The position numbers and the translations under genes were made by a program. Shown here piece after piece: positions 26,486 through 28,756 of a DNA stretch of 60,201 bases (its first letter is position 1; each line of letters starts with the position of its first letter). The notes beneath the pieces were generated by a model, which ran no database searches, was not told the origin of the DNA, and saw only the letters and a list, made by a program, of their open reading frames with translations. The DNA lies in NCBI GenBank assembly GCA_027371845.1, contig DAHXLD010000017.1:1-60201 (forward strand). The letters run 5' to 3'. This stretch comes from Candidatus Saccharimonadota bacterium. Lineage in GTDB: Bacteria; Patescibacteriota; Saccharimonadia; Saccharimonadales; UBA4665.

Positions 26486-27736
26486 CTATTCTCTTCTGTC
26501 TACATAATTTCGGCAAAAATCTTCAAAAATAGCGTTTGTCCAACCAAAACCATCTTGCGACGGATAAACCCCTTTAAATGGAGGTTTTTCGGGAGTTACG
26601 ACATTATATTTTTCAATAAAGTTTTTGTGATCAATAAACCAGTTTAGATTATTCTTAAGCCACTTTATAGCAATAGTTCGAGCCTCTTTATGATAACCAT
26701 ATTTTTCTAACCCCCTTACAACAAATAGGTGTAAAGGAGCCCATCCGTTAGGATAGGCCCACTGAGTGGGCATTGATCCTAAGACAAATTGACCAACCGG
26801 CAAGGTATCGGTCGTAGCAAGACCTCCCTTATATTCAAAACGTTTTAAATGTTTAACTAGGTCCTTTGCCATAGAATCGTTAACCATACCGGCCCAAAGA
26901 GGAACATAAGCCGCCAAAGAATAAATCTGTCCCTTTTTGTTTTTTAGGTAGTTATAGTCAAAGTAGAATTTCTTATTTTTATCCCACATTAAATCATTGA
27001 TGGTTGCTTTTCTTAGATTAGCCACGTCTTCCCAACGACCAGCTTCCCGGCCATTTGCTAATAACTTGGCAGCTTTTGAAAAATCCATTTCGTATTTAAA
27101 CAAAAAAGCGTTTAAATCAATCGGCAGGAAATTTAAGGCTCGATGATTAAATCTGGGTGTCATGTCCCATCCACTTTCAGCTTCAGCCAAATCGTGTAAT
27201 AAATTAGCATCGGTATATCTAGATAAGTTTTTATAAACATTCCTAAGATTAGGTTTTGTAGTACCCATCCAAACGTTATGATATTCTTTTTTAGCAACTT
27301 CTATTTTATCCTTTAGCCAAGTTTTATCCATTTTATAGCTGTTATAGATATCGAAAATTAAAGAAGTTAAAAGAGGAGGTTGAGATCGACCCATAAGAAA
27401 GGTTCTTGAAGCGTTAGGAATAATACCAAATCTATTGAATAAATAGATCAGGTTATCTAGTATCCCTAATACCAAATCTTTATGTTCCTCATCTAAGAGA
27501 CCCTGTACGATAAAATAGCTATCCCAATAATACATTTCATTGAAATCGAAACCTAAATTAGAGGTAATTGAAGGAACAATGTAAGGTTTTGGTAAACCGA
27601 GCAGGCTTTCGTCGTCCTTTGGGTGATAACAAGCTAACTTTTTCCAATAATCTTTTATATAGTCCCGAGCAGGCTGGACCTCTTCTTCGGTTAAATTTAT
27701 ATCCGATCGAAAAGAAACTAATTTTTTTAAATTCAT
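26486..27736 (-). CDS. Trehalase-like glycoside hydrolase (GH37)
   Basis: FDFNEMYYWDSYFIVQGLL, ESGWDMTPRF, QWAYPNGWAPLHLFVVRGL, KYNVVTPEKPPFKGVYPSQDGFGWTNAIF; no signal peptide. Confidence 0.9.
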   Translation of the reverse strand: MNLKKLVSFRSDINLTEEEVQPARDYIKDYWKKLACYHPKDDESLLGLPKPYIVPSITSNLGFDFNEMYYWDSYFIVQGLLDEEHKDLVLGILDNLIYLFNRFGIIPNASRTFLMGRSQPPLLTSLIFDIYNSYKMDKTWLKDKIEVAKKEYHNVWMGTTKPNLRNVYKNLSRYTDANLLHDLAEAESGWDMTPRFNHRALNFLPIDLNAFLFKYEMDFSKAAKLLANGREAGRWEDVANLRKATINDLMWDKNKKFYFDYNYLKNKKGQIYSLAAYVPLWAGMVNDSMAKDLVKHLKRFEYKGGLATTDTLPVGQFVLGSMPTQWAYPNGWAPLHLFVVRGLEKYGYHKEARTIAIKWLKNNLNWFIDHKNFIEKYNVVTPEKPPFKGVYPSQDGFGWTNAIFEDFCRNYVDRRE

Positions 27737-27965: not shown

Positions 27966-28000
27966 TTTTTACAAAAATGACCCCAATATTTGAGGTCAAA
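27966..28000 (-). terminator. Rho-independent terminator downstream of the tmRNA
   Basis: On minus strand TGACCTC-AAATATT-GGGGTCA (7 bp stem, plus coordinates 27978-27998) followed by TTTTTGT. Confidence 0.7.
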
Positions 28001-28011
28001 ATTCTATTATT

Positions 28012-28409
28012 TGGTGGAGCTGCCGGTGATTGCAACCGGGTCCGCTAGTTTAATTCATTAAATGTCTACAGGCATAGTTAATTTAAATCCTATATCTAAA
28101 TAAAAATTAACAAAAATTAGACAAGTTTCCTTATATTGGTCTTAGCATTAAAAATAAAGGAAAAATCTTTAATGAGCATCCAAAAGATATAAAGCGCTTA
28201 ATCAAAGTTTGGAGCTTTTAATTAAGCACTGCCTTTAATATACAAAGGCTGGTGCGAAAGGAGCAAATACGTTAGCAAAAGAGCTTTTAATACTTGCGGC
28301 TAAATCGCTGATTCTAGATTTTGCATCTAAAAGTTTTTGCCTATAACGCTGACAAGCGACCTGCAAATTTAATTATTAAAATCCAACGTCGAGCTTTTGA
28401 TTCAGCCCC
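28012..28409 (-). ncRNA. ssrA: Transfer-messenger RNA (tmRNA)
   Basis: Minus strand 5' GGGGCUGA pairs with 3' CAGCUCC-A-CCA as a 7 bp acceptor stem with a G3-U wobble; T-arm CCGGU/UGCAAUC/ACCGG; resume-like UUUUAGAU-GCA at nt 86; in-frame tag ORF ending UAA; promoter and terminator at the correct distances. Confidence 0.9.
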
Positions 28410-28420
28410 ATCAATAAATA

Positions 28421-28449
28421 ATTATACCATAACTAAGTAATGCTTGCAA
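28421..28449 (-). promoter_or_regulatory. tmRNA promoter: TTGCAA, 17 bp spacer, TATAAT
   Basis: Minus strand -35 TTGCAA (28444-28449) and -10 TATAAT (28421-28426), 12 nt before mature tmRNA nt 1. Confidence 0.75.
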
Positions 28450-28480: not shown

Positions 28481-28756
28481 ATGAGATTTAAACCTAGCCA
28501 AAATTTAAGCGACATGGTCTCTATAGAAGATTATGGAGATAAACTTTGTACAGGTATGAATCCAGGTATTTTCTTTCCTCCAAGTGAAGAACAAATACGA
28601 GAAATGGGTGATAACGTGATCGAGTTTCCCGGAATGACTGAAAGAGCCCAGGAGATCTGCGGTCGTTGTATTTGTAGCTGGGTTTGTTTTTTAGCGGCCG
28701 ACTTACGGGGCGCTGAAGAAGGTATCTTTGGTGGGGTAGATTTTAGTCAACTTTAG
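28481..28756 (+). CDS. WhiB-like Fe-S family protein
   Basis: 91 aa; LCTGMNPGIFFPPSEE, CGRCICSWVC (CxxCx5C), ADLRGAEEGIFGGVD (WhiB GI[W/F]GG turn). Confidence 0.85.
   Translation: MRFKPSQNLSDMVSIEDYGDKLCTGMNPGIFFPPSEEQIREMGDNVIEFPGMTERAQEICGRCICSWVCFLAADLRGAEEGIFGGVDFSQL

Follow-up and report, generated by a model that had tools for sequence, protein, structure and literature searches.

A one-piece tmRNA (ssrA) gene is located on the minus strand at 28409..28012 of the window, i.e., the whole stretch of 60,201 nucleotides of Candidatus Saccharimonadota DNA that was analyzed. The gene very probably gives a working tmRNA for ordinary trans-translation with a long tag typical of its lineage, and this tag would be read most likely by a ClpC-type unfoldase with ClpP. 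In the textbook account, SsrA tags are read by ClpXP. The phylum, which has tiny genomes, keeps tmRNA and SmpB almost without ClpX, and the order of the window is also without full-length Lon. Because ClpX is missing in the phylum and full-length Lon in the order, the tag reader must differ.

Identification of the tmRNA gene

The tmRNA was recognized by covariance search using cmscan. The RF00023 model matched 28409..28012 (-) in its whole length (model 1-374) with 68.0 bits and E 2.3e-24, where the gathering score is 47 bits. A minus-strand tmRNA had been proposed here from the letters of the DNA, and the search agreed with that proposal. The following features were assigned.

28012..28409, minus strand: tmRNA (ssrA), one-piece, 398 nt, CCA encoded; full RF00023 model and conservation in relatives
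28389..28402, minus strand: D-loop region AATCAAAAGCTCGA; AG replaces the usual GG (A at position 18), from sequence
28019..28039, minus strand: T-arm region with CCGGT-TGCAATC-ACCGG; T-loop UGC replaces UUC (G at position 55), from sequence
28235..28324, minus strand: tag frame, resume codon GCA 28324-28322, 29 sense codons, TAA 28237-28235, AKSRISDLAASIKSSFANVFAPFAPAFVY; sequence, comparative resume-codon calls, and frame statistics
28226..28255, minus strand: helix 5 hairpin GCAC-CA-GCCUUUG-UAUAU-UAAAGGC-A-GUGC; fold of -12.6 kcal/mol, z -4.1, homologues in two congeners
28421..28449, minus strand: putative sigma-70-like promoter TTGCAA-17-TATAAT with TG preceding the second hexamer; consensus scan, 10/12 matches
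27978..27998, minus strand: intrinsic terminator-like hairpin TGACCTCAAATATTGGGGTCA, then TTTTTG; consensus scan only

The acceptor stem, read from the sequence, has 7 bp (GGGGCTG/CAGCTCC) with a G3-U70 pair, and the end ACCA is encoded. The promoter-like site ends 11 bases before the 5' end of the tmRNA. Shuffles are expected to give about as many sigma-70-like sites as the scan found, and therefore the promoter call rests on position. The terminator-like hairpin with its T-run starts 13 bases beyond the 3' end.

The gene is conserved in relatives. RF00023 exceeded the gathering score in 45 of the 59 nearest genomes, several more had full-length matches slightly under it, and tmRNA is present in nearly all of the 59. 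SmpB, the partner protein, was found in 53/59, and the own genome of the window encodes it at G000:C5:4824-5240 (TIGR00086, 133.5 bits against a cut-off of 119.1). Two genomes of the phylum each carried two full-length tmRNA matches, i.e., G223 (contigs C3 and C97) and G168 (contigs C6 and C16); paralogy, a mobile element, or contamination may explain the second copies.

Compared with the E. coli-type one-piece tmRNA (RF00023), the gene shares the full covariance match, G3-U pair, CCA end, GCA resume codon, stop in helix 5, and SmpB. It differs in the tag of 29 aa, against the commonest 10, in the FVY end of the tag, and in AG/UGC in place of GG/UUC in the D- and T-loops.

Tag peptide

The resume codon GCA is preceded by TAGAT. 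The sequence-only reading had put the resume codon at 28324 after UAGAU, with 29 codons and a stop at 28237-28235, and both the sequence and the open frames of the relatives gave the same result. The open frame has no significance by itself, as it stays open in 15% of shuffles of the same stretch. In the window's order, the resume-codon frame is open for 16-35 codons in 54/54 tmRNAs, and the medians of the two remaining frames are 7.5 and 4 codons; these tmRNAs come from related genomes and are not 54 independent tests of the frame. The genus-level contig scan gave two congeners only. The sister species (G001) has the tag AKSRISDLAASIKGSFASVFAPFAPAFSY, with 26/29 residues identical to the window's, and the third congener (G002) has AKSIFSKVADLFRPLNFAPAFA. 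As far as sequences can tell, the tag frame is settled by this comparison among relatives, not by the single sequence.

The tags of the order (54 read) have a median of 26 aa. Elsewhere in the phylum, where resume codons were assigned by an automatic caller and a few low-scoring calls are uncertain (e.g., G134, G148, and G143), tags range from 9 to 35 aa with a median of 22. Bacterial tag lengths are generally 8-35 aa (PMC8012679), and the commonest length is 10 aa (PMC11915505). The length of 29 residues is thus normal for this bacterial group.

In the sequence-only reading, the peptide was a short canonical tag, AKSRISDLAA, with an abnormal extension of 19 residues. Its DLAA (residues 7-10) looks like a classical tag end, and the extension could be an accident, if a mutation or a sequencing error had removed the stop. 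This explanation is hardly credible. With 54/54 order tags at 16-35 aa, the length is not abnormal, and a stop right after the DLAA position, which had been named as the sign of a sequence error, was found in none of the 54. The layout is common to two independent assemblies, i.e., the window's (G000) and the sister species' (G001), and the conserved FAPA end falls within the supposed extension. In the phylum sample, 8 tags also have an internal LAA, which arises by composition. Sequencing error as the cause of the long tag is ruled out by the sister species and the whole order.

The lineage-typical long tag ends in a particular manner. The terminal residue in the order is Ala in 39 tags and Val in 9-10, and Tyr solely in the window's species and its sister. 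Terminal Ala accounts for approximately 95% of tags elsewhere in the phylum. Pro is at -4 in 40-46% of the tags, and Ala is at -5 in about two thirds. The window's tag ends in FVY, the sister species' in FSY, and another congener's in FAPAFA. By this sequence comparison, FVY represents a local variant of the tag end, unusual for the group. It is not an assembly error, because the sister species has a like end.

The final tag codons are contained in the helix 5 hairpin, and the stop lies on the 3' side of its apex. The apex reads GCCUUUG-UAUAU-UAAAGGC in the window versus GCUUUUGCUUA-AGAAA-UAAG... in G002. In the window's species and its sister, helix 5 is shorter at the apex, and two more codons precede the stop, which falls in the 3' strand. 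The comparison suggests that the shorter apex explains the terminal VY, i.e., the shortening would have moved the stop two codons downstream so that VY replaced Ala.

A gene kept for ribosome rescue alone, with a drifting tag of no role in degradation, was also considered. Several bacteria depend on rescue as the essential function and can do without tagging. In favour of drift, tags differ widely between genera, and FVY is unlike the common ending. Against this, the tag end is strongly constrained, i.e., terminal Ala or Val, Pro at -4, and Ala at -5, and two of the five codon differences between the window's tag and the sister species' tag are silent. Loss of the degradation role is therefore improbable.

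The tmRNA is proposed to act in the ordinary way. It would be charged with alanine via the G3-U acceptor stem and bound by SmpB. The charged tmRNA-SmpB would enter stalled ribosomes, and translation would resume at GCA (28324). The nascent protein would receive Ala plus AKSRISDLAASIKSSFANVFAPFAPAFVY, and the helix 5 TAA would free the ribosome. The tag would carry the parts usual in the long tags of the lineage, i.e., an alanine-rich segment with positive charge and, after it, the hydrophobic F-A-P-A end, with the local change of the last residues. Its likeliest reader would then be ClpP with the ClpC-type unfoldase, FtsH being the second candidate.

Proteolysis genes

In ClpXP-type tags, recognition depends on the terminal residues. 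The tag does not have the features of a ClpXP-type SsrA degron, i.e., its FVY end is not LAA-like and no ClpX is encoded. ClpX exceeded the cut-off in 0/59 nearest genomes, including the window's own, which is 66% complete, whereas 10/14 controls were positive. In the phylum, ClpX is absent in 191/193 genomes, and the two carriers share one family. Full-length Lon (TIGR00763) was likewise over the cut-off in 0/59 nearest genomes, with 8/14 controls positive. Matches to Lon_C (PF05362) were in frames of about 450 aa, which in the own genome is RadA, and about 510 aa, both too short, and matches to the Lon ATPase part fell mainly on FtsH. Lon as the tag reader was rejected, as the full-length protein is absent from the 59 nearest genomes.

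Besides SmpB and FtsH, the own genome encodes ClpP at L227:328-942 and, at L226:395-2884, a two-ring Clp ATPase of 829 aa whose gene adjoins radA. Two Clp_N repeats, a pair of AAA domains, and the LGF sequence were recognized in the ATPase, and a UVR-like middle stretch scored 20.1 bits, just below the Pfam cut-off of 21.5. Its best NCBIfam scores were ClpB and ClpA, both below cut-off. A matching ClpC equivalog is missing from NCBIfam, and the assignment to ClpC rests on the domains, whose predicted layout is that of ClpC. Among the nearest genomes, ClpP was found in 52/59 and FtsH in 56/59, and the ClpC-type unfoldase is as widespread as ClpP in relatives.

Since ClpX and full-length Lon are absent, a reader other than these two is expected. 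M. tuberculosis ClpC1P1P2 degrades GFP-ssrA (PMC4416901), and for this reason ClpCP is a reasonable candidate here; by analogy it would be the likeliest reader, with FtsH second. The proposed reader resembles that of Mycobacterium in combining a ClpC-type unfoldase with ClpP, but mycobacteria also have ClpX, which the window's lineage does not.

FtsH, or an unrecognised protease, could instead be the main degrader. FtsH degrades some SsrA-tagged proteins and favours hydrophobic C-termini, and the hydrophobic aromatic end of the tag suits it. The gene is in the own genome and in most relatives, and ClpX and full-length Lon are both absent. Yet ClpP and the ClpC-type unfoldase are equally widespread, the mycobacterial ClpC1P1P2 is a proven SsrA-tag reader, and Ala is the final residue of most of the order's tags, as in Clp-type degrons. 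The FtsH route is a real possibility, though the less likely one, and ClpCP is kept as the preferred reader.

The sequence-only reading had suggested a possibly different protease specificity, with mollicutes as an example, and an inventory of proteases as the check. The inventory was informative: the absence of ClpX and Lon, with ClpP, ClpC-type ATPase, and FtsH present, indirectly supports a non-ClpXP route, while the analogy with Lon fails. In mollicutes, Lon took over tag degradation (PMC8138137). The mf-ssrA of Mesoplasma florum is alike in its long tag and in a reduced genome without ClpX. The present lineage is unlike it in having no full-length Lon and in keeping ClpP and the ClpC-type ATPase.

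The ClpX-bearing family is composed of three genomes, and ClpX was shown in two of them. Its tags, i.e., AETTPLAIAA, ADNQSLRALPLAA, and ADNTGLRALPLAA, are short with IAA or LAA ends, E. coli-like. In the ClpX-bearing genome G095 (contig C109, L233), clpP, clpX, and lon are adjacent in an E. coli-like order. This pattern fits an association of long FAPA-type tags with a non-ClpX reader, as seen from a single ClpX lineage. Strict coupling of tag length to ClpX was unsupported, as tags are <15 aa in 20/136 genomes that lie outside the order and have no ClpX, and the ClpX group is one family. Tag length and Lon outside the order gave no useful difference either, i.e., medians of 20 with Lon and 22 without.

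Many genomes of the phylum have a frame, often of 350-400 aa, that matches only about 252-572 of the Lon model. Such frames, e.g., G158:C10:26710-27705 and G228:C6:69775-70746, have the ATPase domain without the protease part, and they sometimes co-occur with full-length Lon. In the literature on tmRNA tags or trans-translation of Saccharibacteria or CPR, nothing relevant was found; the coverage was incomplete and the negative is weak.

tRNA-like domain

In canonical tmRNAs, as in tRNAs, G18 and G19 of the D-loop contact U55 and C56 of the T-loop. The tRNA-like domain had been described as complete in the sequence-only reading. It is complete, but it is not canonical, because the D- and T-loops are without the GG/TTC elbow bases. 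The D-loop has AGCT at the site of the usual GG, and UGCAAUC forms the T-loop; GG and UUC are typical of tmRNA and not defining, and relatives share the change in both loops. A T-loop starting with UUC occurs in 1/54 tmRNAs of the order.

In the phylum as a whole, U55 accompanies D-loop GG in 93 cases versus 2, and G55 accompanies AG in 73 versus 7, as raw counts with related genomes included. In these aligned sequences, the change of D-loop G18 to A covaries with that of T-loop U55 to G, where position numbers follow the tRNA convention via the alignment. In the order, U54/A58 is also replaced by G54/G58 in 34/54. The AG/G55 state is also present in 15 families from outside the order, and one of these, f51, has GG/U55 as well. 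The AG/G55 elbow probably arose or reverted more than once. By analogy with known tmRNA and tRNA structures, A18 and G55 would form the contact. From a limited search, we know of no report of this elbow covariation. It is a change separate from that of the tag reader, in a contact usually deemed nearly invariant.

It is tempting, though doubtful, to consider these changes as a retuning of the whole system. In that case, the loss of ClpX, with long FAPA tags read by ClpC-ClpP, would go together with the repeated elbow switch from G18/U55 to A18/G55 and with G54/G58 for U54/A58 in many members of the order, possibly matched to SmpB or the ribosome.

ARAGORN detected no tRNA or tmRNA in the window, which makes plausible the earlier description of the gene as unannotated. 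In the order, ARAGORN found 3/48 tmRNAs versus 31/32 in other loci of the phylum, and the altered D- and T-loops probably account for the misses. Annotation based on this tool silently loses most tmRNAs of the order.

Neighboring genes

A trehalase-family gene (PF01204, 303 bits) at 26486..27736 (-) immediately follows the putative terminator of the tmRNA. On the other side, a small four-cysteine ORF at 28481..28756 (+), which diverges from the 5' end of the tmRNA, matched WhiB (PF02467, 29.6 bits against a cut-off of 23.6). WhiB is usually regarded as actinobacterial, and its place next to the tmRNA is odd here. At the same place in G002, there are two tandem ORFs with a similar cysteine pattern (L020:1901-2323 and 2323-2679).
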